A stretch of 64,000 nucleotides of DNA from Fischerella sp. CENA71 (GTDB lineage: Bacteria; Cyanobacteriota; Cyanobacteriia; Cyanobacteriales; Nostocaceae), in assembly GCA_024239075.1 (NCBI GenBank), contig JANBVI010000009.1, forward strand, positions 124,001-188,000, written 5' to 3'. Shown here in pieces: positions 427 through 64,000 of the stretch; within the stretch, counting starts at the first letter, position 1; every line of letters begins with the position of its first letter. The translations under genes and the position numbers were made by a program. A model generated the notes under the pieces. The model was not told the origin of the DNA and ran no database searches. It saw only the letters and a program-made list of their open reading frames with translations.

Positions 427-3159
427 CTACAACCTGGGATCTACAGGTTCACTCTCTAGTGCCAAAATTCCAACGATGCACTCATGGACACGGCGTAGGG
501 GTGCGTGACTCACAAAACGTTCTAATGCTTCTACACCCAAAGCAAACTCTCGCTTTGCTAAAGAACGCTTGAGTGATAATCCCCGTTGACGCAAACGTTT
601 TATATTTTCAGGTGTAGAGTACTCCAAGCCATAAACAGTTCGCAAATACTCTTGTCCGCGACATTTCATTGCAGGTTGAATAATTCCCTGATTGTTTTTC
701 ACAATAAATTGTATTGGTTTAATGACCATACCTTCACGACCCATTGCTGTCAGTTCTTCCCACCAACTGACTCCTGCGGCTTCACTGCTTGGATCTGTTA
801 AATCTATGACTTTATATGCTGTTAGTGACAGTAAGCTGGGGTCATGCAGAGCTATGTTTGTTACCTCTTGCATATGCCATTGGTGATCTTTGTCGGTGTG
901 GACAGCTGTTTCTGTTGCCAAGATGTGCAACGGTGCGAGTCTATAGTCAGAAATTGGGTTAACAGGCCAGCAGTAGCGATGGTAAGCTGTGATGTATTTT
1001 TCAGACATCTCGGCTTTTTGTTGATATTTGGTTAATTGTAGAGTCACATCTACACGACGCCGTTCAGCCTTCTTCAGTAAGGTGATAGTATCACCAAGAG
1101 CAAGCTTTGATGCAACGCTAACAGGCGCATATTGTTCTCGTAATTGTCTTTGGCCTTTAGCTGACGAAGGTACGAATTCACACTCTAAGCACACCCAATC
1201 AGTCTGAAATTTTTCCCAGAAGCCACTAGCACTAAGGCAAGTATTTAAACTTACCAATAATTTTGTTTCTAGAGTCGCGTCTTCAAAAAACTTGTTACCT
1301 GTACGGGTATAGCAGATACCAATACCTTCATTCACTACACCAAAACGCTTTTCTGCTGCTGTTTCATCCCGACAAACAATTACCACTACTGGTGAACCTA
1401 TATGTTTTTCTTTACATATGACTTGGGAAATTCCTTGGTTACGATAGTAAGCAAAAGCTTGTCCAGGGTGTTCCAAGTATCCCAAAAATGGGGATGTTCC
1501 TACTGGAGACATAGTAGGTGGTAGATAAATCAGCCATTTGGGATTAGCTGTAAAACGACTGATCACCTCCAAAGCTGCGATCGCATTTTCTTCTCGAATT
1601 TTAATATTAGGTAGTAAGCGGGTATGAATAATTCGCTTACCTATTACATCATTAATATGTAGTACATCATCTTGTTGCTCTTGGGCTGTTATTGCTTCTT
1701 TAACAACGCCATCAATAGGTTTGGCTGGTTGAGTATAAACACGAATAGCAGGAACACTGACTAATTCTTTTTCGGGATAGCGCAGAGCTGTCAGTTTGCC
1801 TCCAAAAACACAACCTGTGTCAATATTAATCGTGTTATTCAGCCATTCTGCTGAGAGTACGGGTGTATGTCCATAGACAACCATTGCTTTACCCTGGTAC
1901 TCTGCTGCCCAATTGTAACGAATAGGCAAGCCAAATTCGTCTATTTCTCCTGTTGTTTCACCATATAAAGCAAATTCTCGGATTTGAGCCGAGCCTCGTC
2001 CCTGATATTCTTGCTTCATTCCAGCGTGAGCAACTACTAGCCGACCATCATCAAGTACGTAATGACACACTAAAGTATCTAAAAATGCTTTTAATTCTTT
2101 GATTTGATGTTCACGCCATTCTTCTGGCAAAGCCTCTATTTCAGCCAAAGTTTTCTCTAGACCATGGTTAACCTTGACCGTCTTTCCACGTAATTTACGC
2201 AAAAATTTGTTTTCATGATTACCAGGAATACAGATAGCTGTCCCTGCTACCACCATATTTCGTACCAATTTCACCGTATCGAGAATACGTGGTCCCCGGT
2301 CTATCAAATCACCCAAAAAAACAGCTTTACGTCCTTCGGGATGGTAGTAGGTAGGAGCATTCCATAGGGAGAGAGGCGTTGGGAGACTGGGGGGAGACGC
2401 GGTTCCATCAGACGCGGAGAAAGCGAGAGGGGGAGACGCGGAGAGTGTTTTGTTGGTGTTCCCCATATCTCCGTGTCTCCGTGTCTCCGTGTCTCCGTGT
2501 CCCCCTTGTTCCCCCAATCCTACTAGTCCCCCAACTCCTCCTTTGACGTAACCTAATTTTTCCAATAAAGCTTCTAGTTCATCACAACAACCATGAATAT
2601 CACCGATGATGTCAAAGGGGCCGTGTTCGTATTTGCGGTTATTCCACAGAGGCTGACGTTCAATTTCTACTGAATCAATTTCTGCTATGGAATTAAGGAT
2701 ATATACGTAGCGAAAACCTTCTCTTTCTAATCCGCGTAGAGAACGCCGTAAAAATTGGGTGTGACGTCGCACCGTATGGGAACCAAACTGACGATTTGGG
2801 CGTTGTTGGTTACGTTCGTGACAAACTTCTTCAGGTGGGTTGAGAGCGATCGCTACCGGAAAAAAATGGTATCTTCGTGCTAATTGCACAAAAATTTTCC
2901 GGTCTTCTGGGTGGATATTGGTCGCGTCAATAACTGTCAGTTTTCCTGCTGTAAGTCGTTTGGTAGTGATAAGTTGTAGTACATCAAAAGCATCTCTAGT
3001 AGCAAATTGATTACTCTCATCATCAGATACCAGTCCCCGGAAGAAATCTGAGGATAAAATCTCAAAAGGTTGAAAAAGTCTACGCGCAAAGGTTGATTTA
3101 CCGGCGCCAGAAGCACCAATGAGAACAACTAAAGAAAGTTCGGGAATAGTTAGTTTCAT
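427..3159 (-). CDS. pnkp: Polynucleotide kinase-phosphatase (Pnkp) of bacterial RNA repair
   Basis: Three-domain RNA end-healing and sealing enzyme, 910 residues from the ATG at 3159; an upstream TTG at 3198 would add 13 residues, but the P-loop would then sit unusually deep. Domain order: kinase with P-loop GASGAGKST at residues 15-23; metallophosphoesterase with GDIHG near 183-188, GDLIDRGPR near 282-290 and GNHE after it; ligase-like adenylyltransferase with the candidate lysine in KEKHIGS near residue 585 and EGMVIKP further on. The family heals 5'-OH and 2',3'-cyclic phosphate ends of cleaved RNA, and works with the methyltransferase Hen1. No hen1 is adjacent: the neighbours are a glycosyltransferase and a coiled-coil gene, both on the other strand. 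About 60 residues between the first two phosphatase motifs are repeat-encoded (separate entry). The residue two after the motif I glycine is proline, where nucleotidyltransferases usually have arginine. Confidence 0.93.
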   Translation of the reverse strand: MKLTIPELSLVVLIGASGAGKSTFARRLFQPFEILSSDFFRGLVSDDESNQFATRDAFDVLQLITTKRLTAGKLTVIDATNIHPEDRKIFVQLARRYHFFPVAIALNPPEEVCHERNQQRPNRQFGSHTVRRHTQFLRRSLRGLEREGFRYVYILNSIAEIDSVEIERQPLWNNRKYEHGPFDIIGDIHGCCDELEALLEKLGYVKGGVGGLVGLGEQGGHGDTETRRHGDMGNTNKTLSASPPLAFSASDGTASPPSLPTPLSLWNAPTYYHPEGRKAVFLGDLIDRGPRILDTVKLVRNMVVAGTAICIPGNHENKFLRKLRGKTVKVNHGLEKTLAEIEALPEEWREHQIKELKAFLDTLVCHYVLDDGRLVVAHAGMKQEYQGRGSAQIREFALYGETTGEIDEFGLPIRYNWAAEYQGKAMVVYGHTPVLSAEWLNNTINIDTGCVFGGKLTALRYPEKELVSVPAIRVYTQPAKPIDGVVKEAITAQEQQDDVLHINDVIGKRIIHTRLLPNIKIREENAIAALEVISRFTANPKWLIYLPPTMSPVGTSPFLGYLEHPGQAFAYYRNQGISQVICKEKHIGSPVVVIVCRDETAAEKRFGVVNEGIGICYTRTGNKFFEDATLETKLLVSLNTCLSASGFWEKFQTDWVCLECEFVPSSAKGQRQLREQYAPVSVASKLALGDTITLLKKAERRRVDVTLQLTKYQQKAEMSEKYITAYHRYCWPVNPISDYRLAPLHILATETAVHTDKDHQWHMQEVTNIALHDPSLLSLTAYKVIDLTDPSSEAAGVSWWEELTAMGREGMVIKPIQFIVKNNQGIIQPAMKCRGQEYLRTVYGLEYSTPENIKRLRQRGLSLKRSLAKREFALGVEALERFVSHAPLRRVHECIVGILALESEPVDPRL
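2357..2545. repeat. In-frame purine/pyrimidine-rich repeat inside pnkp
   Basis: The segment holds four consecutive copies of the octamer TCTCCGTG near 2468-2500 and oppositely oriented GGAGACGCGG tracts near 2390-2450, so it can fold on itself. It resembles the noncoding repeats at 4433-4560 and 8255-8372. It encodes a low-complexity stretch (about residues 205-267, including TETRRHGDM) between phosphatase motifs GDIHG and GDLIDRG. No stop or frameshift results. Confidence 0.75.
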
Positions 3160-3471
3160 AATTAGTGGTTGGTTACTAATAGTTTGTACAAGCGCCAAAA
3201 CTAGGACTTGTACTGTTGTTGGTAGTTTTGCTTTACCTTGACCTCCACTCTCCCTTCCTCTTTTCCCCTAATCTCGTAGGGGCTACTGAGTTCTAATTTC
3301 CAAGACAGTTTGTTGTCTGAGAACTACTCTTCCAAATTTGATATGGGTGTAAGCAAACCTATTTATGCAGTTAAATGCTTTATTTTGACGTTAGTTCGAT
3401 AAATTGCTTTAAAACTCTGTCCAAATCACAGAAGGAACAGTGTTTGTGCGTCAGTTGTCCTATCTTAAAAG
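3160..3471. other. Intergenic region between divergent pnkp and glycosyltransferase genes
   Basis: 312 bases that should hold both promoters. A small hairpin, CCCCTA(6 nt)TAGGGG, lies at 3265-3282. No convincing promoter consensus or further gene was seen. Confidence 0.5.
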
Positions 3472-4431
3472 ATGGGTAGTAGTGTGGTGAGTGATACTGT
3501 GTTTTTTAGCGTTGTGATTCCGACATACAATCGCCAGCCGATTTTGTCAAAGTGCCTCAGAGCATTAGAAATACAGCAATTGAGTGCATCTAGTTCAATC
3601 GCTGGTTACGAAATTATCTTGGTGGATGATGGTTCTACTGATGGCACATTGGAATGGTTAGAGACACACAAAAGTGAGTTTCCCCATGTGCGAATTTTTC
3701 AGCAAAATCATCAAGGGCCTGCTGTAGCGCGAAATTTAGGTGTGGAGAAGGCGCAGGGTGACACTATTATCTTTATAGATAGCGATTTAGTGGTGACAGA
3801 GAATTTTCTACAAGCTCATGCTGACGCACTAAGGGAGGGACACTCAAAATTGGGAAGCGATCGCGCCTTTACCTATGGTGCTGTCATTAACACTTGTAAT
3901 TTTGATCATCCTACCTCTGAGCCATACAAAATCACAGATTTTTCTGCGGCTTTTTTTGCTACAGGTAATGTTGCTATTCCTAAGCATTGGTTAGAAAAAG
4001 CTGGATTGTTTGATACGAGTTTTCAACTTTATGGTTGGGAAGATTTAGAATTAGGCGTGAGGCTGAAAAAACTAGGTTTAACACTGATTAAATGTCCGCA
4101 GGCAGTCGGCTACCATTGGCATCCACCCTTTAGCTTAGACCAAATTAAGAGCTTAATTGACAAAGAAATTCAGCGCGGAAAGATGGGAGTTTTGTTTTAT
4201 CAAAAACACCCGACTTGGGAAGTACGAATGATGATTCAAATGACTTGGTTACATCGCTTACTGTGGGGAATTCTTTCATTCAATGGTGCTTTAAATGAAC
4301 GGACAATGGCTCCTTTGTTGCAATGGCTGATTAATAGAGGTAAGCCCCAACTAGCTTTAGAAATTGCGCGAATTTTCCTCAATTGGTACAACGTCAAAGG
4401 TGTGTATGAAGCGTATGCGGAAATGAGGTGA
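3472..4431 (+). CDS. Family 2 glycosyltransferase
   Basis: Inverting GT-A fold sugar transferase of 319 residues. The N-terminus has VVIPTYNR (about 14-21) and VDDGSTDG (about 51-58); the metal-binding acidic motif is in FIDSDLV near residue 105; a C-terminal YGWEDLELGVRL segment near 187-198 matches the ED motif seen in galactosyltransferase-like GT2 enzymes. There is no membrane segment, so it is probably cytosolic or peripheral. Acceptor and donor cannot be read from sequence. It stands alone, with no other cell-wall or polysaccharide gene beside it. The start is the first ATG ahead of the conserved fold; no strong Shine-Dalgarno is visible. Confidence 0.88.
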   Translation: MGSSVVSDTVFFSVVIPTYNRQPILSKCLRALEIQQLSASSSIAGYEIILVDDGSTDGTLEWLETHKSEFPHVRIFQQNHQGPAVARNLGVEKAQGDTIIFIDSDLVVTENFLQAHADALREGHSKLGSDRAFTYGAVINTCNFDHPTSEPYKITDFSAAFFATGNVAIPKHWLEKAGLFDTSFQLYGWEDLELGVRLKKLGLTLIKCPQAVGYHWHPPFSLDQIKSLIDKEIQRGKMGVLFYQKHPTWEVRMMIQMTWLHRLLWGILSFNGALNERTMAPLLQWLINRGKPQLALEIARIFLNWYNVKGVYEAYAEMR

Positions 4432-4432
4432 G

Positions 4433-4560
4433 CGGGGGAAGACGCGGGGACGCGGGGACACCGGGACGCGGAAACACCGGGAATACAGATGAAATACTCT
4501 CCGCATCACCGTGTCTCCTACTCTCCGCGTCTTCTCCCAATTCCCAATCCCCTTTCCCCG
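4433..4560. repeat. Purine-rich/pyrimidine-rich dispersed repeat, intergenic copy
   Basis: A GACGCGGGG/ACACCGGG purine-rich arm (4439-4482) is followed by a TCTCC/GCGTCTTC pyrimidine-rich arm (4498-4540) and a CCCAATCCCC tail, giving an imperfect inverted repeat. The same composition recurs at 8255-8372 and inside several genes. Confidence 0.75.
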
Positions 4561-4578
4561 ATTCCAAAATATGCTACC

Positions 4579-4677
4579 CTATTATGGTTCTTTAAATTCC
4601 GCACATCCAGGCGTTCGGGTGTTTCTAATAAGGAAATCCACCTGGATGGAGGTTTAACCCGAATAGGAGTAACAAAT
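4579..4677 (+). promoter_or_regulatory. Possible structured rpsB leader (pseudoknot next to the ribosome binding site)
   Basis: Two perfect complementary pairs interleave in order A-B-A'-B'. CATCCAGG (4604-4611) pairs with CCTGGATG (4641-4648), and TTCGGGT (4614-4620) pairs with ACCCGAA (4657-4663). This is the arrangement of an H-type pseudoknot. B' ends one base before the Shine-Dalgarno AGGAG (4665-4669), which is 8 nt from the ATG. An alternative stem, GGTGTTTC/GAAA..CACC (4618-4625 with 4633-4642), overlaps both and would compete. A TATTAT at 4580-4585 is a possible -10. E. coli rpsB is known to be autoregulated through a leader RNA; a similar role here is inference. Confidence 0.5.
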
Positions 4678-5472
4678 ATGCCAGTAGTTTCTTTGGCTCA
4701 GATGATGGAGTCAGGGGTTCATTTTGGTCATCAGACCCGCAGATGGAACCCAAAAATGTCTCCATACATCTATACCGCCCGCAACGGAGTACATATCATT
4801 GACTTGGTGCAAACAGCCCAGTTGATGGAAGAGGCATATACCTATATGCGATCGCAAGCCGAACAAGGCAAAAAGTTTCTTTTTGTTGGCACTAAGCGGC
4901 AAGCAGCAGGTATCATTGCTCAAGAAGCTTCCCGTTGTGGCGCTCACTACATTAACCAGCGCTGGTTGGGCGGGATGCTCACTAACTGGGCGACGATCAA
5001 AACGCGGGTAGACCGTCTCAAAGACTTGGAACGTCGGGAAGAAAGCGGCGCTCTTGATTTATTGCCAAAAAAAGAAGCCTCAATGCTACGCCGTGAGTTG
5101 GCGAAGCTTCAGAAATATCTGGGCGGCATTAAAACTATGCGGAAAGTCCCCGATGTTGTGGTAATTGTAGACCAACGCCGGGAATATAACGCAGTTCAAG
5201 AATGCATCAAGCTCGGAATTCCCATTGTGTCTATGCTGGACACAAACTGTGATCCAGATGTAGTAGATATTCCCATCCCAGCCAATGATGATGCCATCCG
5301 CTCAATTAAACTGATTGTTGGTAAATTGGCGGACGCGATTTATGAAGGTCGTCATGGTCAGTTGGATGTAGAAGAGGAATACGAAGACTACGAAGGCGCA
5401 GAAGAAGAATACGATTACGAAGAAAGCGATTTTTCTGACTCGTTCATTCCCGACGAAGAAGAGGAAGAATAA
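4678..5472 (+). CDS. rpsB: 30S ribosomal protein S2
   Basis: Small-subunit ribosomal protein of 264 residues, starting [19 protein letters not shown]. The start is the ATG at 4678, supported by AGGAG 8 nt upstream; the frame is open further 5', but that part is repeat DNA and leader. S2 signatures visible are the [15 protein letters not shown] segment near residues 13-28, the FVGTKRQA region and the [12 protein letters not shown] block. The C-terminus is a long acidic tail, rich in Glu, Asp and Tyr, typical of cyanobacterial S2. It is followed after 124 bases by tsf, the usual bacterial pairing. Confidence 0.98.
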
Positions 5473-5596
5473 TTCAGTTACCAGTGAACAGTGAACAGTT
5501 ACTAGTTGATAATTCATAACTGATAACTGTTCACTGAAAAATACTCAAAACCCAAGAGCAATTAAAATTGTCAGTCTAAGTAGGAATTGAGGCAAA

Positions 5597-6256: not shown

Positions 6257-6353
6257 TTTTAGTTGTTAGTTGTTGGTTGGTTGTTGTTTGTCAATAGTTT
6301 GATAGATTGGCAACTATCAACAGCTAACTACCAACGATTAACTAAATTTTAGG

Positions 6354-6539: not shown

Positions 6540-6673
6540 AGTCAACAGCCAATACGGTTCGGTTAAGAATTTTTCGTCATGCTTTGGGATGTAGAGACGT
6601 GCCATGGCACGTCTCTACAGGGTATTAGATGTCTAATCGATTTGTCTTATCCGAACCGTATTGAGTCAACAGC
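6540..6673. mobile_element. MITE copy 1 with 10-bp target-site duplication
   Basis: A 114-bp element (6550-6663) is bounded by 19-bp terminal inverted repeats beginning CAATACGGTTCGG and ending CCGAACCGTATTG, with one mismatch between the arms. A perfect 28-bp palindrome (6591-6618) lies in its centre. It is flanked by an exact 10-bp direct repeat, AGTCAACAGC, at 6540-6549 and 6664-6673. There is no coding capacity. A second copy lies at 18274-18386. Confidence 0.88.
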
Positions 6674-8005: not shown

Positions 8006-8401
8006 GTGTTTAATTAACTAAAGTTTCTATAATTACCAGTATATTTGTCTAAATAACGGCTTAACAGCATAGATGCTGTTTGCAATATCTACATTTAGAT
8101 TGCTGTAATTGCCAGCTTAAAAGCAACTAAAAAACTAAGGGTTTTAACCGTTGGCATTATATTGAGAATATTGGGATGTTCTCTGTTAGCCAAAGGCGTA
8201 ACGTACCTTACCTTCTGTAATTTTGGAAGTTTACAATACAAGGAATTGGGATAGGGGGAACAAGGAGGACAAGGGAGACATGGGGACAAGGGAGAATGTC
8301 AATCAAATACTCTCCGCGTTCTCTTCTCTCTGCTTCTTTGCGTCACCCCCTCCCCGCGTCTTGCTAAATTTCCAATCCCCTACATCCAATCTAAAATTAC
8401 T
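8006..8401. repeat. Intergenic region with purine/pyrimidine-rich repeat
   Basis: 8255-8372 holds a GGGGAACAAGGAGGACAAGG-type arm followed by a CTCCGCGTTCTCTTC/CCCCGCGTCTTG arm, the same family as 4433-4560. Both promoters of the divergent flanking genes should be here; none was convincing. Confidence 0.65.
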
Positions 8402-18264: not shown

Positions 18265-18396
18265 GGGATAGGTCAATACGGTTCGGATAAGAATTTTTCG
18301 TCATGCTTTGGGATGTAGAGACGTGCTATGGCACGTCTCTAGTGGATTTATATGTCTAATCGGTTTGTCTTATCCGAACCATATTGAGAGATAGGC
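18264..18396. mobile_element. MITE copy 2 (same family as 6550-6663)
   Basis: A 113-bp element at 18274-18386 with the same 19-bp terminal repeats (18 of 19 match between arms) and the same central palindrome in slightly decayed form. The 10 bases on the left (GGGGATAGGT) and right (AGAGATAGGC) match at 7 positions, all differences being transitions, as expected for an aged target duplication. Confidence 0.82.
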
Positions 18397-36906: not shown

Positions 36907-37122
36907 TTGAGGTCAGGGGTGTGGGGAAATTTTTATAGGTTATTAATTTTTGAGCAACTTCGCACTTTAGGGTAGCAAAAAGTTATAACAAAATAATCAC
37001 AAATCACTCTCCTTGGGAAGGTGACAAACTTGCCGAATAGAGTAGATTTTGATAAGACAGCATTGATACGTAATGCTACCGCAGTCACCAATCGATAAGT
37101 TTAAGCTGGTGGGTGAAAAGTG

Positions 37123-38691
37123 ATGAATGAAGCAGACACCCCAAACAACGGGGCTTTTGATGAACCCCAAAATCCTGCTGGTGCGCCACAACCGCAACAA
37201 GCAAGTTGTCCTTTTTATTCTGTTTTGCCTCTCGAAAACAGAACAATTTCGCAATTGCCATTGTTAGCACCAGCGCAAGATCAGCAGTGTCAGGAAGATG
37301 CATCTTGTCAAGACTCAATGACAGAAACGAACCAACAAATAGAGGAAACGAGTAATTCTGAATACATATTAGAGTCAAATCAGCAACAACTAGAGGAATT
37401 AAAACCTGAACTAGATTGGGTTGCGGAGCCTGAAAAAGAAAAACAAGCACTGATTGACTCTGAATTTAAGCAACTGTTGGCATTAAATGAAGAATTGTGT
37501 TCTGCCAACAATGATTTATATGAACAAATAAAAGGTTTAAAAACAGCTTTATCTGAGTCAGAGGGGGCTGTGCAATGGCAGCAAAAGCGTTCTACTGTTG
37601 CAGAGTCTATGCTTAACCAACAGACTCAAGAGCTAAATGCCGCTCAAGAACAGATAAAATCCCTATATCAACAGTTGGAAACTGCACTACAAACAGTGCA
37701 AACTCAAGAAACTGTTATAGAGAACTATAAAGCACAGCTAGAAATTAACCAACAACGTCTTGCCCTACTGGAGCGAGAATGTACCTTACTTCAAACTAAA
37801 TATAACGAACAATCACACCAGCTACTGCAATCAGAAAATTCCTGTCGAGAATTACGTACTCGCTTAATGCGGCAACAACGCCAGACATTACAATTTAAAG
37901 CAGCTCTCGAAAAATGTCTAGAAACACCACCACCTAGCTCTGATTCTACAGAGACTCATAATAATACCAATAATGTAGGTAGTAAACACGCGAGAAATTA
38001 TCAGCGAACTCATTCTTTACTTCCCAACCAGCAACCAATTCAACCTTGGTCAGCAGAAGCTGATTCTTCCACAGAAGATATAGATCGTTTCAGGGTAGAA
38101 TCTTCTTGCTCAAACCCACCACATCCATGGGATAACTCAACCTCTAGTCAATCATCGACTGCTGATACTCCATCCCAAGAAAGCATACTGACTCCAGACC
38201 AAACAAATATCGAGCCAGGAATTGATGATGAAACTGGATCACAAACAATTTCATCTTCAGACTCGTTAAGCTTAGATGAGCAAGTTGATAACTTAATTCA
38301 ATTGTTTTTTGCTGCCCAGACTACATCTGTATCACCACCACAATTGCTTGGAAAAGATCCAGAAGATATAGAAGAAGCAAAAAATGATGAGCAAACTGTG
38401 ACGCCCCATTGGGAAACAGTAGCTACTCCCGTTAAAGATACAGAAGATACAGAAGATACAGAAGATACAGAAGATACAAAAGAACCAATAATTGTCATCT
38501 CAGCCAGTGCTAACACAGATCCTGAGAACAATGAGGATTTATGGTTAGATATCTCACCATTACCTCCTTCTTTACCAGGGTCTGATGAGTCTGACAAATC
38601 GCCCTCACCCGTGGTTTATCCTGAACGACCACCAAAAGGGCGAAAGTCTTTAGCATCAGTAGAATTACCAGATTTTCGCCAAAACAAGTAG
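37123..38691 (+). CDS. Coiled-coil protein with disordered acidic C-terminus
   Basis: 522 residues from ATG 37123 (GTG at 37120 overlaps). The N-terminus (1-60) is proline- and glutamine-rich; residues about 85-270 form a long coiled coil; the C-terminal half is Ser/Asp/Glu-rich and probably disordered. It contains four to five EDT repeats made by a 9-bp DNA repeat (about 38437-38480). The last residues, RKSLASVELPDFRQNK, may be a short conserved tail. No signal peptide, no membrane helix. Not recognised; such architecture fits a structural or scaffold protein. Confidence 0.72.
   Translation: MNEADTPNNGAFDEPQNPAGAPQPQQASCPFYSVLPLENRTISQLPLLAPAQDQQCQEDASCQDSMTETNQQIEETSNSEYILESNQQQLEELKPELDWVAEPEKEKQALIDSEFKQLLALNEELCSANNDLYEQIKGLKTALSESEGAVQWQQKRSTVAESMLNQQTQELNAAQEQIKSLYQQLETALQTVQTQETVIENYKAQLEINQQRLALLERECTLLQTKYNEQSHQLLQSENSCRELRTRLMRQQRQTLQFKAALEKCLETPPPSSDSTETHNNTNNVGSKHARNYQRTHSLLPNQQPIQPWSAEADSSTEDIDRFRVESSCSNPPHPWDNSTSSQSSTADTPSQESILTPDQTNIEPGIDDETGSQTISSSDSLSLDEQVDNLIQLFFAAQTTSVSPPQLLGKDPEDIEEAKNDEQTVTPHWETVATPVKDTEDTEDTEDTEDTKEPIIVISASANTDPENNEDLWLDISPLPPSLPGSDESDKSPSPVVYPERPPKGRKSLASVELPDFRQNK
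38437..38480. repeat. 9-bp tandem repeat encoding EDT
   Basis: About five copies of a GATACAGAA-like unit within the coiled-coil gene, in frame. Confidence 0.85.
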
Positions 38692-38935: not shown

Positions 38936-41087
<2,152 letters not shown>

Positions 41088-45180: not shown

Positions 45181-47229
45181 ATGACTAACGATGTTTTGAT
45201 TATTGGTGGCGGTATCATCGGTTTAGCGATCGCCGTTGAATTGAAACTGCGTGGCGCGAAAGTCGTCGTGACTAGTCGCGACTTCCACGCAGCCGCTACA
45301 CATGCTGCTGCTGGGATGTTAGCACCGGATGCAGAAAACATCTCCAATTTAGCAATGCAAGAATTATGTTGGCGATCGCGTGCTCTTTATCCTGAGTGGA
45401 CACACAAATTAGAACAACTTACTGGTGTAAACACTGGTTACTGGCCCTGTGGTATTTTAGCGCCAGTCTATGAAGAGGAGGTTCTGACGCGGGGAAGCGA
45501 GGATACGGGGATGATTGTTGATACATTTTCCGCGTCTGCTTCTCTCCGTTTCCCCGCGTCTTCACAAATGTCACCGCCTCTTCCTCTCCCTGCGTCTTCT
45601 CAAACAGCTTACTGGTTAGACAAAGAAACTATTCATCAATATCAGCCGGGTTTAGGAGAAGAAGTAATCGGTGGTTGGTGGTATCCTGAAGATGCCCAAG
45701 TAAATAATCGAGCCTTGGCAAAGGCACTGGTTGGTGCAGCACAATGTTTGGGTGTGGAACTAAAAGAAGGAACAGCAGTAGAAGGCATTTTACAGCAGCA
45801 AGGGCAAGTTGCAGGAGTTCAAACCAATGCTGGAATTTTGCGTGCCGAACACTATGTTTTAGCTACAGGTGCTTGGACTAATCAATTATTTCCCTTGCCT
45901 GTACGTCCAACCAAGGGACAAATGTTAAGTGTACGTGTACCAGAAGCGATTGCGGAATTACCCCTAACACGGATTTTATTTGGTCACGATATTTACATAG
46001 TGCCAAGGCGCGATCGACGAATTATCATTGGTGCTACCGTCGAGGAAGTTGGCTTTATTCCCCAAAACACACCAGCAGGGATTCAAACTTTACTACAACA
46101 AGCCATCCGTTTATATCCTCAAATCCAGAATTATCCCATAGAAGAATTATGGTGGGGATTTCGTCCTGCTACCCCCGATGAGTTACCAATCCTGGGAAAT
46201 AGTTCCTGTCAAAACCTCACCTTTGCAACGGGACACTATCGTAATGGGATTCTGCTTGCACCGATAACAGCAGTATTAATTGCTGATTTGATTTGGGGAC
46301 AAAAATCTGACCCCCTATTGTCGCATTTTCATTACTCGCGCTTCCAGAACCAATCATCTACCTCCCCTGTGATGCTTACTCCTTCGCCTTCACCACTATC
46401 CTATAGGCAGATTTCCCAACCCACCCCTACCATTGCTGACACACCCCTCGTTATTGCTGGTAAAACTTTTACCTCCCGCTTGATGACGGGAACTGGTAAA
46501 TATCGCAGCATCGAAGAAATGCAGCAAAGTGTCGTGGAAAGTGGTTGTCAAATTGTGACAGTCGCAGTTAGACGAGTACAAACTCATGCACCTGGACATG
46601 AAGGTTTAGCCGAAGCGCTAGACTGGACAAAAATTTGGATGCTACCAAATACTGCTGGCTGTAAAACAGCCGAAGAAGCTATTCGCGTTGCCCGTTTGGG
46701 GCGAGAAATGGCAAAACTTTTGGGACAGGAAGAAAATAATTTTGTCAAGTTAGAAGTAATTCCCGACTCTAAATATTTATTACCAGATCCCATTGGCACC
46801 CTACAAGCGGCGGAACAATTAGTCAAAGAAGGCTTTGCGGTTTTACCTTATATTAATGCTGACCCAATGCTAGCCAAGCGTTTAGAAGAAGTCGGCTGTG
46901 CAACAGTAATGCCTCTCGCCTCACCGATTGGTTCCGGTCAGGGATTGAAAACAACTGCTAACATTCAAATTATTATCGAAAATGCCCATATTCCGGTAGT
47001 GGTAGATGCTGGTATTGGTGCGCCATCGCAAGCAGCAGAAGCAATGGAAATGGGTGCGGATGCTTTGTTGATTAACAGTGCGATCGCCTTGGCAAAAAAC
47101 CCACCCCTAATGGCACGCGCCATGAATCTGGCAACAACTGCCGGTCGTATAGCCTATCTAGCCGGAAGGATGCCCATCAAAGACTACGCCAGCCCCTCTT
47201 CACCAATGACTGGAACAATTACAAATTAG
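45181..47229 (+). CDS. thiO-thiG: Bifunctional glycine oxidase ThiO / thiazole synthase ThiG
   Basis: 682 residues combining two steps of thiamin thiazole synthesis. The ThiO half (about 1-380) has the FAD motif [15 protein letters not shown] near residues 6-20 and makes dehydroglycine from glycine. The ThiG half (about 420-675) starts [19 protein letters not shown] and carries [16 protein letters not shown] (about 521-536), whose lysine forms the imine with deoxyxylulose phosphate, and the phosphate-binding [18 protein letters not shown]. Such fusions are known in Nostocales. Residues about 99-141 are repeat-encoded low complexity. The start ATGAC continues a heptamer array. Confidence 0.95.
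45475..45605. repeat. In-frame purine/pyrimidine-rich repeat inside thiO
   Basis: A GACGCGGGGAAGCGAGG arm at 45486 is followed by TCCGCGTCTGCTTCTC, CCCCGCGTCTTC and CCCTGCGTCTTC tracts. It encodes an Ser/Pro-rich stretch (residues about 99-141) inside the oxidase fold. Confidence 0.75.
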
Positions 47230-47380
47230 GGATTGGGGATCGGGGATTGGGGATCGAGGATCGGGGACAAAGGAGACAAGGGAGACAAGGGAGAATTTTT
47301 TTACAAGTCTCTTCCCGATCCCTAATCCCCGATCCCCAATCCCCGAGCCCCGATCCCCAATTCCTAATCCCTTTTGTAAC
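47230..47380. repeat. Long inverted heptamer repeat (GGGGATT / AATCCCC)
   Basis: GGGGATT, GGGGATC and GACAAGGGAGA units (47230-47295) are followed by AATCCCC, GATCCCC and CGAGCCCCGATC units (47315-47372) in reverse complement. Together they can form a long imperfect hairpin after the thiazole gene. Confidence 0.78.
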
Positions 47381-52620: not shown

Positions 52621-53910
52621 TCAGTTTGATATTGGTAGTTCTGGCAAAATAAATCCCTTCAGTGTTAAAAATGTTTCTGTTTCCTTGAGTCCTTTACTTT
52701 GTGCCAAGACACCAAATCCACCCAATCCATAAGGATCTACAAGCTGACGCAATGCATCGCGACGACGCAGTAAATCTGAGATGGGTTGATTTGTAGTATT
52801 AGACAGGCTAACCATGCGATCGCCTAAACCCAACGCCATCAAAAATAATTCTTGCTGCGTCCAACCAACTTTAGCTAATCCGCAGCGTTCACCCCATCGT
52901 TCTAAAGCTGTAAAATCAACATGGGCTGTAATGTCTTGTCGCCCAATATTGATGTAGGGGTTATTATGGCGTTGATGATGCCAGTAACACTGGAGTGTAC
53001 CTTGCGATCGCCTCGGATTATAGTAACGACTTGCTGGATAACCATAATCTATAGTTAACACATACCCTCGCTGCAAACGGTCTGCTACTACACCTAACCA
53101 ATCTAGCGCCGCTAAATTTACCTCACTGCGATATCCTTCTGGATAAACGTTTTCTAGGAACTGAATACCAACTAAATCAAAGTATTCCGCTAGTTTTGGT
53201 GTAGAAGGTTCAGCGATAACTTCCGTAAAGGGAGTGTGGGGAGATGAGGAGATGGGGGGACGAGGGGACGCGGAGAGAGGGGAAGTGGGAGGAGTAAATA
53301 ACTCTTGACTTTGTACAGACGTGATTAATCGCGTCTGTGCTGACTCTGACTGTAGAGTTACATAAATTTCTCGTAATTGCCCTTGTTCCAAAATAAATTG
53401 ATGTACTGGTAGAGCATCCACCAATTCATTTGAGAAAAAGCAGCCGATAATAGAGTTACTAGATATTTCTTCTAAACTGCTTTTGATTTCGACTGGAAAT
53501 TCTTGTAGGCGTTGCTGCTGTTCTTGCCTGAGAATGGGCGACTTTTCTACAATAATGTAGTTTAGGGCAGCAAAAAAATTTGGATAGCGCAGTTTGAGAT
53601 AATTTAGAATATCTAATGCTAAATGTCCTTGGCCTGCACCCATTTCTACCAAAGAAAAAGCCGCAGGTTGACCTATAATTTCCCACATTTGCACAAATTG
53701 TTCAGCTAGCAACTCACCAAAGTCAGGGCCAAGATGAACAGAGGTGAAAAAGTCGCCCTGCTTACCAATATTCACAGCTTCGGTAGAATAGTAACCATAA
53801 TCAGGATGATACAATGCCATATCCATGTAGGTGGCAAAAGTAATTCGCTGATCAGGACTATTGGTAATACGCTCGCCTATAGCAGCACATAATGTTGAAT
53901 GAGAATTCAT
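52621..53910 (-). CDS. NDUFAF7/MidA-family SAM-dependent methyltransferase
   Basis: 429 residues. The N-terminus (ITFATYMDMALYHPDYGYYS, about 24-43) and the AdoMet segment FSLVEMGAGQGHLALDIL (about 85-102) are characteristic of the family, which methylates an arginine of complex I subunit NDUFS2 in mitochondria. Here NDH-1 assembly is a possible but unproven role. Other family blocks seen are FFSNELVDALPVHQF, VLTIDYGYPASRYY and CQRTHHQHN-like histidines near CYWHHQRH. Residues about 188-232 are encoded by two different repeats (separate entry). Confidence 0.88.
   Translation of the reverse strand: MNSHSTLCAAIGERITNSPDQRITFATYMDMALYHPDYGYYSTEAVNIGKQGDFFTSVHLGPDFGELLAEQFVQMWEIIGQPAAFSLVEMGAGQGHLALDILNYLKLRYPNFFAALNYIIVEKSPILRQEQQQRLQEFPVEIKSSLEEISSNSIIGCFFSNELVDALPVHQFILEQGQLREIYVTLQSESAQTRLITSVQSQELFTPPTSPLSASPRPPISSSPHTPFTEVIAEPSTPKLAEYFDLVGIQFLENVYPEGYRSEVNLAALDWLGVVADRLQRGYVLTIDYGYPASRYYNPRRSQGTLQCYWHHQRHNNPYINIGRQDITAHVDFTALERWGERCGLAKVGWTQQELFLMALGLGDRMVSLSNTTNQPISDLLRRRDALRQLVDPYGLGGFGVLAQSKGLKETETFLTLKGFILPELPISN
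53215..53345. repeat. In-frame compound repeat inside the NDUFAF7-like gene
   Basis: A GGGGAGATGAGGAGATGG / GGGGACGCGGAG stretch (53237-53290) is followed by a near-perfect 24-bp palindrome ACAGACGTGATTAATC..GTCTGT (53315-53338). Both repeat families also occur outside genes. They encode residues about 188-232. Confidence 0.75.
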
Positions 53911-56808: not shown

Positions 56809-56825
56809 TAACTTTCATTGATTAA

Positions 56826-58888: not shown

Positions 58889-58892
58889 ATTT

Positions 58893-58970
58893 TGTCAATA
58901 GTCATTTGTCATTTGTCAATAGTTAATAGTCAATAGTCAAGCGTCAAGAGTCAATAGTCAAGAGTTAAAA
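58893..58970. repeat. Heptamer array (GTCAATA / GTCAAGA)
   Basis: About nine TAGTCAA/AGTCATT/GTCAAGA units between the permease start and the 21-bp array. Confidence 0.75.
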
Positions 58971-59094
58971 CTCAAAGTTCTAGTTTCAAACCTCAAGATT
59001 CTAGTTTCAAACCTCAAGATTCTAGTTTCAAACCTCAAAGTTCTAGTTTCAAACCTCAAGGTTCTAGTTTCAAACCTCAAGGTTCTAGTTTCAA
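58971..59094. repeat. 21-bp tandem array, about six copies
   Basis: Each unit is CTCAA(A/G)(G/A)TTCTAGTTTCAAAC. Five full copies start at 58971, 58992, 59013, 59034 and 59055, with a sixth shortened at 59076. Only two positions vary. The spacing equals two turns of DNA. Confidence 0.92.
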
Positions 59095-59215
59095 TACTAA
59101 GCAGTGAGTAATTTAATTAAGTAGTAAAGCAAAAATATTTATACATTTAATGATATAGTATCCACTGGGAAATAAGATAAAAAGTAAAGGTGTAGGTGTG
59201 CGTTTTATTAGAGGA

Positions 59216-59545
59216 TTAAGTCGAGAAACTATCGGGATCTAAGGAAGCTGCTTCCCAGATGGGGTAGAAGTGTAAACCGATCGCGTTGGAAGAAGGTACT
59301 ACTGCACCGGAGATGATGTTGTTTCCGTACATTAAGGAACCTGCTACGGGTTCACGGATGCCATCGATGTCTACTGGAGGTGCAGCGATGAAGGCGATGA
59401 TAAAGCAGGTTGTTGCTGCGAGCAAGGTTGGGATCATGAGTACGCCGAACCAGCCTACGTATAGGCGGTTGTCGGTGCTGGTTACCCAGTTACAGAAGCG
59501 ATCCCATACGTTAGCGCTTTCGCGTCTTTGTAAGGTTGCTGTCAT
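59216..59545 (-). pseudogene. psbA: 5' fragment of psbA (photosystem II D1), truncated after 103 matching residues
   Basis: 109 codons. The first 103 residues ([20 protein letters not shown]... to [12 protein letters not shown]) are normal D1, including the first membrane helix (about 33-55) and the lumenal loop. It then departs into six unrelated residues, PDSFST, and stops at TAA. D1 is normally about 360 residues, so the pigment, manganese and quinone ligands are all absent and the piece cannot be a functional reaction centre subunit. No downstream psbA remnant is found in the next 120 bases. The upstream leader and possible promoter are intact. Either a dead copy, a donor for gene conversion, or an expressed short peptide. 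Confidence 0.85.
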
Positions 59546-59640
59546 TGTTCTTATGATTGCGTTAAGTGAATTATGTATGATGTGTTAGCAAGTTCTCTTG
59601 CTTGTTTTTAAGACTACTTTACATTTAGTTACAAAAGCAA
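59546..59640 (-). promoter_or_regulatory. Promoter/leader of the truncated psbA copy
   Basis: On the minus strand TTGCTT (59640-59635), an 18-bp gap and TAGTCT (59616-59611) form a possible promoter. Just downstream AGCAAG-AGAA-CTTGCT (59602-59587) is a perfect 6-bp hairpin in the leader. Confidence 0.45.
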
Positions 59641-59695
59641 GAGATTTACATTTACCTTTTCTTTTCTAAGTCATCAGGTTTACTTATCTATTGCT

Positions 59696-61111
59696 CTAAA
59701 CCAGGGCTTTAAGCAACGCCTGAAGTTTGAGTTGAATTTCTGCGAGTTCTTTTTCTGGATCGGAACCTGCAACGATACCAGCACCAGCGTAAAGTCTGGC
59801 GCGATCGCCATCTATAAGTGCAGAACGAATTCCCACAATAAACTCACAGTTCCCGTCTGCGTCTACCCATCCCAAGGGTGCAGCGTATAAACCTCTCTCA
59901 AAGCTTTCGTAACGGCGAATTTCGACGCAGGCTGCATCTGGTGTAGTTCCAGCAACTGCTGGTGTGGGATGTAGTTGGGAAACTATTTTTAAAGGATGCA
60001 CTTCATCAGGAACAATCGCGCTAATTGGTGTCCATAGATGCTGAATATTAGATAATTGTCGCAACCGGGGTGGTAATATTTGCGGTAATAAACCTAGTTG
60101 CGAGAGACGTTGAGTAATAAAATCAATTACTAGGGAATGTTCGTGTCTTTCTTTTTCACTATTAAGTAAGCGATCCGCATTGGTAGCATCTTCAGCAGGT
60201 GTTTCGCCTCTTGCTGCACTACCTGCTAAAGCATCGGTGATTAATTGTTGGTTGTGAATACTAATTAAACGTTCTGGGCTTGCACCAATAAAGTTTTGTC
60301 CTTTGCCGTTGCTTGTAGAGAAAACATAACAATTCGGATGTAGCTGTCGCAAGTTATGTAAAGAATTAAACAAATTAAATGTGGTATTCGATCTAACATC
60401 TAGTGCATCTGCTAGCACAATTTTACTGACATGGGTAGATTGAATTGTTTGCAGAGCAGATAACACCGAACGTTTGAATTTTTCTGGATTAGCTACAGAT
60501 TTTTTACTAAATTTTGGCTCTTGAAAATCCTGATGGGGAGAATAAGATGTTGAAGAGTTAATAATTTCAATTTTTCTGCACAAATTTTGCAAGATTCTTT
60601 CAATATTTACTTCCGCATGAATGATAAAATTAGCAACTAAGATACAGTATTCCGCTTTAACAGCTATTTGCCAACGAGGAAGAAAAATTGTCGCTGCTGG
60701 AAATGGGTAACTTTCTTGCTGGTTTTGATCAAAAAAACTAAAACCACAAAAAAAGAGTGGTTTAGAAAAATATCTTTCTGTAGCGCCAAAATCAACTATA
60801 TTTTTTAAACAATATTTGATAAATGCTTCAGATTTTATAAATCTTTCTTTTCCCTCTATTTGTAATTTTGCTACAGCATCAATTGCAGCGATCGCTTCTT
60901 TTTTTCCTTTGTTTTCCCAATAAAAATTTAGTTGATGTGGTTGTGCTAGTTTATCAAGTACTACCAAGGGGTCAACCAAGTTAATTTCTAGGGCAATACT
61001 GGCAATTTGAGTGGAATTATTTTTTATACTTTTGCGCTGAACAGCAAAAAGAAATTGGTATAGTTCCCTATTATATACAAAAAAGTCAGCGGCACATGGT
61101 GAAACTGTCAT
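59696..61111 (-). CDS. menF: Isochorismate synthase (phylloquinone/menaquinone pathway)
   Basis: 471 residues. Converts chorismate to isochorismate, the first step toward phylloquinone of photosystem I. The chorismate-binding core is in the C-terminal half: FIGASPERLIS (about 274-284), DALAGSAARGETPAED (about 293-308), HPTPAVAGTTPDAACVEIRRYE (about 381-402) and GIVAGSDPEKELAEI (about 448-462). The N-terminal 200 residues are weakly conserved. Divergent from menA, so the pathway is split between two transcription units. Confidence 0.94.
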   Translation of the reverse strand: MTVSPCAADFFVYNRELYQFLFAVQRKSIKNNSTQIASIALEINLVDPLVVLDKLAQPHQLNFYWENKGKKEAIAAIDAVAKLQIEGKERFIKSEAFIKYCLKNIVDFGATERYFSKPLFFCGFSFFDQNQQESYPFPAATIFLPRWQIAVKAEYCILVANFIIHAEVNIERILQNLCRKIEIINSSTSYSPHQDFQEPKFSKKSVANPEKFKRSVLSALQTIQSTHVSKIVLADALDVRSNTTFNLFNSLHNLRQLHPNCYVFSTSNGKGQNFIGASPERLISIHNQQLITDALAGSAARGETPAEDATNADRLLNSEKERHEHSLVIDFITQRLSQLGLLPQILPPRLRQLSNIQHLWTPISAIVPDEVHPLKIVSQLHPTPAVAGTTPDAACVEIRRYESFERGLYAAPLGWVDADGNCEFIVGIRSALIDGDRARLYAGAGIVAGSDPEKELAEIQLKLQALLKALV

Positions 61112-61413
61112 GGATCTAAAAATAGTAAATTTTTTTGAAGTAATCTTCCTAAACAGTGATAAATCATGGTCGTATTTCTACAGGTAACATAAACAGTCGC
61201 CGTTTCACCAGCGTGTTGGCTCTGCCAAATTATGGTTTTTGCAATACCATGTGTGGTCTTGCCTAGCTTTGCGCTGAATGTTGTGACTAATAGCAAGAAA
61301 TTAATTTCATTCGTAGAAAAATATTTCTTGATGATGTTACCTGCATATGGTTTGAATGAAAACCATAAGTTTTAGGCAGAAGAAAGTCCTAACAATATAA
61401 TTCATTGTGACTG
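61112..61413. other. Divergent menF/menA promoter region
   Basis: 302 AT-rich bases. A minus-strand frame of about 60 codons overlaps it, but has no family feature and no start signal. No clear regulator palindrome found. Confidence 0.5.
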
Positions 61414-62322
61414 ATGACTACAAATTTGATTTCGTATCCCAAAAATAATGCCAAAAATAAGCTATGGATGGCGGCAATAAAACCGCCGATGTATAGCGTT
61501 GCTATTATGCCTATCTGGGTAGGAACGGCTGTAGCGTTTGCGGAAACGAATATTTTGAATTGGGTCGTTTTTGGTGTTTTTTTAGCTGCGGCAATTTTAA
61601 TTTTGGCATGGGAAAACCTCAGTAATGATGTTTTTGATTCGGAGACGGGAATTGATCAAAATAAACATCATTCTCTGGTGAACTTAACAGGTAACAAACT
61701 ATTAATATTTTGGTTAGGAAATCTATTTTTATGCTTAGGTTTGTTGGGGATACTAGCGATCGCTTGGTGGCAATGTGACTGGACTGTAATTGAATTAATT
61801 CTAGTCTGCTGTGCTTTGGGATACGTTTACCAAGGGCCTCCTTTTCGTTTAGGATACCAGGGTTTAGGTGAAATCCTCTGCTTTTTTGCCTTTGGGCCAA
61901 TTGGGATGTCGGCAGTATACTACAGTCAAACTCAAAGCTGGTCAATACAGAATTTAGCAGCCTCAGTGATTGTTGGTATCGCCACAACTTTAATTTTGTA
62001 TTGTTCGCATTTTCACCAGGTGACAGACGATTTAGCAGCAGGGAAGCGATCGCCTATTGTGCGTTTGGGAACTCAAAGAGGCGCACAAGTTTTGAGTTGG
62101 TTTACTGCTAGTATTTATCTCCTGACTTTATTATTTGTTTTGGGGGGAATTTTCCCTGTGTGGACATTACTGAGTTGGGTGAGTTTACCCTTCGCGATTA
62201 AATTATGTCGCCATGTTCAGCAAAATCACAGTCAGCCAGAACAAGTCAGTAACTGTAAATTCCTCGCTGTCGCTGTTCATTTTTGGTGTTGCTTGCTGTT
62301 TGGTGCAGGATTTATGTTTTGA
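61414..62322 (+). CDS. menA: 1,4-dihydroxy-2-naphthoate phytyl/prenyltransferase
   Basis: 302 residues with eight or nine membrane helices. UbiA-superfamily aspartate motif NLSNDVFDSETGID (about 69-82) binds the prenyl diphosphate through magnesium; the second acidic motif is HFHQVTDDLAAGKRSP (about 200-215). Attaches the phytyl (or prenyl) tail to dihydroxynaphthoate. First gene of menA-menC-menE on the plus strand. Confidence 0.95.
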   Translation: MTTNLISYPKNNAKNKLWMAAIKPPMYSVAIMPIWVGTAVAFAETNILNWVVFGVFLAAAILILAWENLSNDVFDSETGIDQNKHHSLVNLTGNKLLIFWLGNLFLCLGLLGILAIAWWQCDWTVIELILVCCALGYVYQGPPFRLGYQGLGEILCFFAFGPIGMSAVYYSQTQSWSIQNLAASVIVGIATTLILYCSHFHQVTDDLAAGKRSPIVRLGTQRGAQVLSWFTASIYLLTLLFVLGGIFPVWTLLSWVSLPFAIKLCRHVQQNHSQPEQVSNCKFLAVAVHFWCCLLFGAGFMF

Positions 62323-62364
62323 CGACGTGATTTGAGTTTTAAGCCAGTACAGCATTAATTCTTT

Positions 62365-62415
62365 GCGATTTAAAACGCAGAGGAACGCAAAGGTAAACGC
62401 AGAGGAGCGCGGAGT
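62365..62415. repeat. Dispersed GCAGAGG repeat, second copy
   Basis: GCGATTTAAAACGCAGAGGA followed by an ACGCAAAGGTAAACGCAGAG-like stretch. Matches 32458-32507 closely. Confidence 0.75.
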
Positions 62416-62491
62416 CTTGGTGTTAAAATTTCGCGATCCCAATTCCAAAATTGTTTGACGCTCGTGATAAATTGATTTGATCTAGAAGGTA

Positions 62492-63445
62492 GTGAATTAT
62501 AAATTTGAATTTCGTCCTTACCAGCGAAAATTTGTGCGCGGGATTGTTACGAGTTATGGGGTTTGGGAGATTCGTGAAGGTATTATTCTTCGCCTTACAG
62601 ATGAAACTAACAAAGTAGGTTGGGGAGAAATAGCGCCGATTAGCTGGTTTGGTTCGGAAACCTTAGCACAAGCCTGGGATTTTTGTCGTCAGTTACCAAT
62701 GGAAATTACTGAGGAAACTATTTTGTCTATCCCTGATCAGTTACCTGCTTGTCAGTTTGGATTTGAGTCAGCACTTTTTTCTCCACCCACTCCCAGTACT
62801 CCCCTCACCCATAGCGCCTTACTACCTGCTGGGGAAGCAGCACTACAAGCGTGGGAGAATTTGTGGCAACAAGGATACTCTACTTTCAAATGGAAAATCG
62901 GTGTTTATCCGACGCCTGTTGAACTAAAAATTTTAGATTTACTCACGCAAAGCTTACCAACGTCTGCAAAACTGCGGTTAGATGCTAATGGTGGATTGAA
63001 GCAAGAGAAAGCAAAGTTGTGGTTAGAGAGTTGCGATCGCCTAAATAGCAAGATTGAATTTCTTGAACAACCTTTATCTGTAGATCAATTTCCGCAAATG
63101 CTGGAGTTGAGTAAATGCTACAAAACAGCGATCGCTTTAGATGAATCTGTCGCTACACTCCCACAGCTAAAATACTGCTTTCAACAAGGTTGGCGAGGAA
63201 TTTTTGTAATTAAACCATCAATAGTCGGTTCTCCATCCCAGTTGCGTCAATTTTGTCAGCACCATGAGATTGATGCAGTGTTTTCATCTGTCTTTGAAAC
63301 TTCTATTGGCAGAAAAGCAGCCATGCAAATAGCAGTGGAATTATCCAGACACAATCGGGCGATGGGTTTTGGTATTAATCATTACTTTGCTGAAGATGAG
63401 GGAATTGGGGATTGGGGAGCAGGGAGAGTAACCAACGCCCAATGA
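62492..63445 (+). CDS. menC: o-Succinylbenzoate synthase
   Basis: 317 residues, GTG start at 62492. An enolase-superfamily enzyme, dehydrating SHCHC to o-succinylbenzoate. Catalytic lysine pair in FKWKIGVYP (about 131-139), metal ligands in LRLDANGGL (about 161-169), FLEQPL and ALDES, and the C-terminal lysine in FVIKPS. The last 17 residues (EDEGIGDWGAGRVTNAQ region) come from a GGGATTGGGG heptamer repeat, and a proline-rich stretch near 95-110 resembles another repeat. Followed by menE after 34 bases of AATGACC heptamers. Confidence 0.93.
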   Translation: MNYKFEFRPYQRKFVRGIVTSYGVWEIREGIILRLTDETNKVGWGEIAPISWFGSETLAQAWDFCRQLPMEITEETILSIPDQLPACQFGFESALFSPPTPSTPLTHSALLPAGEAALQAWENLWQQGYSTFKWKIGVYPTPVELKILDLLTQSLPTSAKLRLDANGGLKQEKAKLWLESCDRLNSKIEFLEQPLSVDQFPQMLELSKCYKTAIALDESVATLPQLKYCFQQGWRGIFVIKPSIVGSPSQLRQFCQHHEIDAVFSSVFETSIGRKAAMQIAVELSRHNRAMGFGINHYFAEDEGIGDWGAGRVTNAQ

Positions 63446-63474
63446 CCAATGACCAATGACCAATGACAACCAAC
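63441..63474. repeat. Heptamer array (AATGACC x4)
   Basis: Four AATGACC units span the menC-menE junction. Confidence 0.82.
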
Positions 63475-63479
63475 AAAAA

Positions 63480-64000
63480 ATGGAGATATTAGGAAATTTT
63501 AGTTTGGTGTGCGATCGCAGTGATGAACTGGCACAATTAATTGAAGAATTTTATTTAGAATTAATAAACTTCTCTAACAGCCAAACAACACCAAAATTAA
63601 TTTTGGCTGAACGCGAACCCGTACGATTTTTGGCAGGATTTATTGCTGCTTACACCGCTAAGTGTCCTGTCTTTCTTTGTAATCCTAACTGGGGAAAACA
63701 GGAATGGCAACAAGTAATTGATTTAGTACAGCCAGATATTATTTGGGGAATAGAGGAAAGACGCGGAGATATGGTGAAGTGGGGACACGGAGATATGATT
63801 CATAATTTCTCCGCGTCTCCCACGCACCGCGTCCCCGTGTCTCACTCCCCAACTATCATGATTCCCACCGGCGGTTCATCTGGTAATATCAAATTTGCTG
63901 TTCACAGTTGGGAAACTCTCACAGCTTCAGTACGTGGATTTACAGAATATTTTCAACTACAAACAGTCAATTCATTTTGTATATTGCCTTTATATCATGT
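63480..64000 (+). CDS. menE: o-Succinylbenzoate-CoA ligase, N-terminal part (runs off window)
   Basis: First 173 codons from ATG 63480; the 3' end is outside the window. The N-terminal acyl-adenylate domain shows the AMP/ATP loop IMIPTGGSSGNIKFAVHSWE (about 127-146). It activates o-succinylbenzoate with CoA in phylloquinone synthesis. Residues about 93-123 are repeat-encoded (RRGDMVKWGHGDM...) and sit just before that loop. Last gene of the menA-menC-menE run visible here. Confidence 0.9.
   Translation, partial: MEILGNFSLVCDRSDELAQLIEEFYLELINFSNSQTTPKLILAEREPVRFLAGFIAAYTAKCPVFLCNPNWGKQEWQQVIDLVQPDIIWGIEERRGDMVKWGHGDMIHNFSASPTHRVPVSHSPTIMIPTGGSSGNIKFAVHSWETLTASVRGFTEYFQLQTVNSFCILPLYH
63755..63850. 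repeat. In-frame purine/pyrimidine-rich repeat inside menE
   Basis: AGACGCGGAGATATGG and GGGGACACGGAGATATG arms are followed by TCCGCGTCTCCCACG and CGCGTCCCCGTGTCTC arms, an inverted repeat of the same family as in pnkp and thiO. The frame is kept. Confidence 0.8.

Follow-up and report, generated by a model that had tools for sequence, protein, structure and literature searches.

How can repeated DNA lie inside enzyme genes whose reading frames stay open? The question is raised by a 64,000-nt stretch of the genome of the filamentous cyanobacterium Fischerella sp. CENA71 (contig JANBVI010000009.1, forward strand, positions 124,001-188,000), the whole of which is called the window here. A first-pass annotation had pointed to GC-rich segments of one palindromic repeat family at two places between genes and inside five genes: pnkp, a CruA-like gene, thiO-thiG, a gene for an NDUFAF7-like protein, and menE. 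All seven segments were found, with a GC content of 0.53-0.62 against 0.41 for the window, and each of the five in-gene segments reads through without a stop in the frame of its own gene. Analysis of the repeat, modelled as an element that we call R1, and of its sites in related genomes leads us to regard it as probable that these segments are selfish repeats tolerated in permissive protein loops, and that such loops then turn over.

The R1 element within and between genes

The main element begins with a G-rich arm, whose units are 8-10-mers (GGGGACACGG), continues through a short core that is AT-rich (GAATAnnnnTGAAATACTC and its variants) and ends with a C-rich arm of CTCCGCGTC units. Alignment of 30 copies gave the consensus GACACGGGGACACGGGGACACGGGGAATATTnTTGAnAnATTCTCCGCGTCACC...CTCCGCGTC, about 94 nt long, and the R1 model of 94 positions was built from these copies on sequence alone. 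A strict pattern of two adjacent GGGGACRCGG units had found 2 sites only and was replaced by a looser motif scan and then by the R1 model. The arms form inverted repeats in several copies. When six element copies and one composite hairpin of the window (47225-47371) were folded as single sequences, five of the seven folds were significant (z from -4.2 to -7.5); no significant hairpin was seen in the pnkp copy (z -0.75) or in the intergenic segment 8255-8372 (z +1.5).

Copies were counted in a 1.0 Mb sample (C9:1-200000, C27:1-400000 and C64:1-400000) of the 7.47 Mb genome, G000. The model gave 105 both-strand matches there; 45 of the 105 rows, being opposite-strand duplicates, were removed by hand and the remainder was merged. 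Fifty-seven copies resulted: 27 in open reading frames (ORFs) of at least 120 aa, in frame by classification, 27 intergenic and 3 at ORF edges, and these counts lean high because the source copies of the model come from the same 1.0 Mb. Scaled to the genome, on the assumption that the three large contigs are representative, this gives about 425 copies, 202 of them in genes (Poisson 95% 133-293). A scan of the whole genome, in which 150 of 3313 candidates were scored, yielded 159 R1 matches, some of which are one place read on both strands. The same core recurs in unrelated genes and in intergenic places.

R1 matches were present in 36 of 60 genomes of the family (E <= 1e-5, with no more than 70 candidates scored per genome). 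Counts came near the ceiling of 70 in four genera (g1, g2, g36 and g48), were 20-52 in five others (g8, g21, g50, g52 and g53) and were at most 17 elsewhere. The distribution of R1 is patchy, and the filling of loops by other repeats is wider.

Beyond the window, copies within ORFs were found in genes for a LysA-type decarboxylase, a PHO4 phosphate transporter, a dihydroorotase, a Gfo/Idh oxidoreductase, PurL, a Methyltransf_30 protein, an alpha-mannosidase, RecJ, TrpD and a hybrid histidine kinase; two CobN/Mg-chelatase family proteins and MutS2 have two copies each. Seven insert-bearing enzymes (Pnkp, ThiO, MenE, PyrC, PurL, RecJ and MutS2) pass the NCBIfam equivalog cut-off. Alignment of sequence to solved structures placed gaps and low confidence at the insert of TrpD (1vqu), and divided Pnkp (4j6o) into two aligned stretches, the best of which begins at residue 285, just past the insert.

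Length changes among relatives

The sites were compared with four genomes of the same genus (G001-G004), which are not independent of one another. Outside the segments the DNA is mostly 90-95% identical between G000 and these relatives; the segments themselves vary, in length or in content, from strain to strain with few exceptions. Of the 20 length comparisons made at the window sites, 19 gave a multiple of three or no difference. Sixteen further sites were compared (17 flank pairs less the histidine kinase site C64:380447, for which no relative was among the matches listed). Lengths between chosen anchors, which include some conserved flanking residues, agreed modulo three in all 64 comparisons at these sites, and in 59 of them the lengths differed. 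For the five window genes and the 16 sites together, 83 of 84 length comparisons are therefore multiples of three. The sole exception is thiO-thiG of G003 (L056:12275-14379, that is C8:772275-774379), whose frame is broken. The break has an inverted pair of adapter-like sequence, which we take to be of Nextera type, beside unrelated DNA, and is probably an artefact of assembly or library preparation.

Among wider homologues, loop lengths between anchors, again with some flanking residues, were multiples of three at 31 of 31 measured pnkp loci, 30 of 30 NDUFAF7-like loci and 30 of 30 TrpD loci. For pnkp, 32 of 46 loci had been taken, and L118 was unmeasurable because its record ends. In another alignment, one that was not used for folding, 38 of 46 loci were retained. 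Neither the lengths nor the sequences of the loops were equal between homologues, as expected if the first-pass annotation was right to see them as insertions. In the syntenic regions, indels of 6 nt or more that lie outside ORFs fall into classes of 86, 99 and 85 by length modulo 3. Because the net lengths of the insert sites shift in threes, while gaps outside ORFs are evenly spread, the simplest reading is that the proteins would be translated through the segments. Coding indels of at least 18 nt in synteny lie at insert sites, except for those in the repeats of ORF 37120-38691, one of 18 nt at window position 100, and others close to or at the ends of ORFs. Synteny with G004 (C1:576001-776000) extends over about 11 kb only.

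Nearly empty orthologous sites were seen for PitA in G001 and G003 and for Gfo in G003, the element being present in G000 and G004. Since the same core occurs in unrelated genes and in intergenic DNA, and since the PitA and Gfo sites are nearly empty, the data point to copying and not only to local growth. If local slippage of short units were the sole process, without any copying, the likeness of the loops would be a convergence of GC-rich simple repeats. Many loops are in fact plain arrays of 9-mers or 7-mers, such as those of CruA, PyrC of G002 and RecJ of G003. However, the AT-rich core that R1 copies have in common, whether in unrelated genes or between genes, is not a tandem repeat; the number of R1 matches scored in the genome and the existence of nearly empty orthologous sites also speak against slippage alone. 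We consider this explanation, already weakened by the shared core, to be unlikely.

Filtering of copies inside genes

The share of R1 copies that lie in genes, 27 of 57, is well below the coding fraction of 0.79 (p 1.5e-7). Genes thus hold fewer copies than the amount of coding DNA would predict, and gene insertion is therefore filtered, not favoured. No interrupted gene was found among 28 motif clusters and 30 R1 copies outside ORFs by a screen of flanking ORFs, which needs long open frames on either side, so that short or decayed broken genes would escape it. Six distinct places (two and five, with one common to both) had been flagged as possible broken genes and were rejected, as their flanks are different genes; at C27:149304 these are a histidine kinase and a PEP-mutase-like enzyme, distinguished by eye without a family search.

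The core itself differs between the two classes of copies. A stop-bearing variant (ATATTTTTGAT / ATATTTTTGA), whose TGA closes sense frames, was found in 0 of 27 in-gene and 9 of 27 intergenic copies (Fisher p 0.0018). This bears on the suggestion that the segments are removed from RNA or protein, as introns, inteins or by programmed skipping. Relatives nearly without segments and hairpins in some copies would suit such a process, but the length steps of three (83 of 84) and the lack of the stop-bearing core in genes both point to translation, which leaves removal scarcely credible.

The codon phase of the C-rich arm in genes is also uneven: 21 copies are read in the phase whose consensus translation is SAS, 5 in the PR phase and 1 in the LRV phase. 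Outside genes, 21, 28 and 19 of 44 strand readings are stop-free in the SAS, PR and LRV phases, respectively. From this difference we infer selection against the hydrophobic reading, although sample sizes are small and copies may have a common origin. The phase preference of 21:5:1 might instead mean that the inserted peptides are useful, for example as linkers or as segments for interaction or regulation, and that positive selection maintains them; their hydrophilic composition and the fact that several nucleic-acid repair enzymes are hit (Pnkp, RecJ and MutS2) would agree with this. On the other hand, neither sequence nor length of a site is conserved even within the genus, in-gene copies are depleted relative to coding content, and the removal of hydrophobic readings explains the phase bias equally well. 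Positive selection for the peptides thus seems to us quite improbable.

Loops filled by other repeats

Several of the loops hold different repeats in other strains. The CobN loop of G002-G004 has a GTAG-type palindrome, the PurL loop of G001-G003 AAAATCC heptamers, the MenE loop of G001-G003 ACCAATT heptamers, and the CruA-like loop of G002-G004 heptamers as well.

The same is seen at greater distance. The Pnkp site measures 42-222 nt between anchors in 23 cyanobacterial loci and 36-63 nt in 6 of 8 loci of other phyla, the exceptions being Hymenobacter qilianensis (213 nt) and an Armatimonadetes metagenome-assembled genome (150 nt). Both of these long sites contain palindromes that are dispersed in their own genomes, with 95 matching pieces in Hymenobacter and 67 in the Armatimonadetes genome, counting the site itself and both strands. 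In Iningainema the Pnkp site has a GTAGAGACG-type palindrome. Of 30 TrpD loci, 21 have a loop of 7-15 residues and nine a longer one of 19-67, and the NDUFAF7-like stretch between anchors varies among genera from 23 to 54 residues. The NDUFAF7-like loop of one genome, G061, was tried as a dispersed repeat and rejected, because its repetition in that genome is weak, with 6 partial matches in addition to the loop itself.

Because the same loops hold different repeats in other strains and phyla, an insert-tolerant loop has received other inserts independently. One could go further and see the enzyme loops as lasting landing places, refilled with unrelated repeats across phyla, where active exchange of cassettes between intergenic and genic sites would rewrite loops under frame selection at the peptide level, undirected and genome-wide, at some 200 or more gene sites. 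We put this forward as a possibility, and a rather doubtful one.

Segments of the window

The claim of a single repeat family is not confirmed. The segments in pnkp, thiO and menE and the two intergenic ones match R1, as they must by construction, all five being among its 30 source copies, but the family has its remaining copies in other parts of the genome; those in the CruA-like and NDUFAF7-like genes have no R1 match at E <= 0.001.

The pnkp insert (2357-2545, minus strand, within ORF 427-3198 of the same strand) comprises an R1 match at 2410-2510 with flanking 9-mers and encodes about 63 residues in the phosphatase part of the protein, whose name comes from TIGR04075. In thiO-thiG (ORF 45181-47229, plus strand) the insert lies in the ThiO half at 45475-45605, also plus strand, with an R1 match at 45475-45563 and a hairpin of z -4.16; ThiO is supported by TIGR02352, and ThiO-ThiG by Pfam and NCBIfam. 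The menE insert (63755-63850, plus strand; R1 match 63757-63843; hairpin z -4.51) lies in ORF C9:187456-188889, which extends beyond the window, and the MenE assignment is supported by NF005662. According to the first-pass annotation the inserts stand beside catalytic motifs and not in them. By eye this was seen for two genes: the pnkp insert falls between what we take to be the motifs GDIHG and GDLIDRG, and that of menE presumably immediately ahead of PTGGSSG.

The insert of the CruA-like gene (40497-40576, minus strand, in the minus-strand ORF 38952-41087) is made of tandem 9-mers (TTGTCCCCC), in place of which relatives carry heptamers or different fillings. The protein has no Pfam match and a sub-threshold NCBIfam match only, and its name is that of the first-pass annotation. 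At 38936-39009 a heptamer array, (GACTATG)n, encodes the C-terminal tail and the stop codon of this ORF, so that a different repeat class extends into its end.

In the NDUFAF7-like methyltransferase gene (ORF 52621-53910, minus strand) the insert at 53215-53345, on the same strand, combines a degenerate C-rich arm with a GACGCGATTAATC palindrome. The arm resembles the R1 family; the palindrome, separate from the arm (GACGCGATTAATCRCGTC, 53315-53338), looks by eye like repetitive extragenic palindromic (REP) sequences and is missing in G001. The protein belongs to Methyltransf_28 (PF02636) and is without an NCBIfam match.

Between genes, one palindromic element (4445-4535; R1 match; hairpin z -4.61) separates a glycosyltransferase gene from rpsB. 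The rpsB ORF as called (4489-5472) begins within this element, and its S2 domain starts at residue 72; the true start is probably downstream of the called one, or else the element encodes an N-terminal extension. The second intergenic element (8265-8346) matches R1 and has no significant hairpin. A third intergenic feature is the composite hairpin at 47225-47371 (z -7.5), built of heptamer and 9-mer units with a partial R1 match at 47257-47316; similar copies are found in G000-G004.

Two further repeats were observed. ORF 37120-38691 has a AAGATACAG 9-mer array at 38435-38483, the length of which varies in frame by 18-27 nt among strains. A 68-nt repeat, 97% identical, is present at 6550-6617 and 18274-18341 and ends in a GTAG-like palindrome, TAGAGACGTGCCATGGCACGTCTCTA.

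Discussion

At the level of sequence it is shown that copies of one core lie both in unrelated genes and between genes, that the loops vary in three-base steps among close relatives, some of which are nearly without inserts, and that other repeat families fill some of the same loops. The mechanism that we propose would begin with a small, non-autonomous dispersed repeat that is copied through the genome. An insertion into a gene would survive only if its length keeps the frame, no stop arises and the site is a putative surface loop. Such a loop could accommodate a peptide that is hydrophilic and flexible, typically GDTGTRGHGD..N..LSASPRLSLSAS. In a loop that has become disordered, the gain, loss or replacement of repeat units should cost little, and the loop would become a site of continuing turnover through slippage, recombination with other copies and new insertion. 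The repeat would thus be tolerated rather than useful.

A number of observations weigh against selfish repeats tolerated in permissive loops. Of 48 single alignment gaps within ORFs that are 6 nt or longer, just 27 have a length divisible by three; most of the off-frame ones are split gaps within one site or lie at ORF ends, and the net change per site fits three except close to or at the ends of ORFs. Intergenic copies have no more open frames than shuffled sequences do (2.81 against 3.05 of six), for which reason the element itself does not avoid stops and the idea that it is intrinsically stop-free was rejected; for in-gene copies the corresponding values are 3.74 and 3.04. The consensus fold of the 30 aligned copies gave zero base pairs. 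Neither target-site duplications nor a transposase or other mover were identified, and no search aimed at them was made. Only 19 of the 27 in-ORF copies, those of pnkp, thiO and menE included, sit in ORFs that match a Pfam or NCBIfam family above cut-off; one more is in an ORF with a sub-threshold match only (C64:15720-17334), and seven are in ORFs outside the family search. The TrpD insert may be in a dispensable gene, since G000 has a second TrpD copy (on C45). Finally, the classification itself makes all 27 in-ORF copies in-frame ones, so the excess of in-frame events expected from the first-pass annotation was approached indirectly, through the length steps and through the lack of any broken gene at the 30 copies outside ORFs.

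In-frame palindromic inserts are already known, from Rickettsia (PMC10969869) and, as REPs, from several bacteria (PMC3733652). The Rickettsia palindromic elements are given as about 150 bp long, with 44 insertions in R. conorii (PMC10969869). The Fischerella element may be said to work like them, in that both are dispersed repeats, the Fischerella one apparently palindromic in part of its copies, present in frame within many unrelated protein genes; against the 44 insertions stand 27 in-ORF copies in 1.0 Mb, or about 200 by extrapolation. The likeness is drawn from behaviour; the host belongs to a different phylum, and the Fischerella arms are variable tandem 8-10-mers. Thus the comparison made in the first-pass annotation stands as far as dispersed repeats have become protein segments, but several families take part, and the Fischerella loops turn over within the genus instead of holding single fixed insertions, some being common to other repeat families.

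REPs offer a second comparison. According to PMC3733652, REPs within genes add residues to the encoded proteins, frequently those of DNA repair; it also reports that different REPs lie at about the same recB site in two Xanthomonas species, and that GTAG families occur in cyanobacteria. As to the GTAG/CGTC REPs, the palindromes in CobN of G002-G004 look like the GTAG type, and CGTC occurs many times in R1, in its C-rich arm; the GTAG tag is missing from the R1 consensus of 30 copies. By description, R1 with its roughly 94 positions and tandem-unit arms is unlike the single 20-40 bp palindrome of REPs (PMC3733652).

Heterocystous cyanobacteria are hosts of short tandemly repeated repetitive (STRR) heptamers, and in the relatives several of the loops contain arrays of heptamers. 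Unlike the tandem 7-bp units of STRR arrays, the R1 units are 8-10 bp long and surround a non-tandem core, heptamers being found only as other fillings. We recognised no report of protein-inserting copies of this cyanobacterial family in a literature search that missed most subscription papers.

The finding has several consequences. One is a warning that repeat DNA may account for loops of low complexity in proteins of cyanobacteria. A free-living organism would here show how selfish DNA becomes protein sequence, with an estimated number of insertions above the 44 of R. conorii (PMC10969869). Orthologous enzymes whose loops are nearly empty, short, long or differently filled form a natural experiment on protein sites that tolerate insertion, and it becomes directly testable whether the inserts have a use or are neutral.

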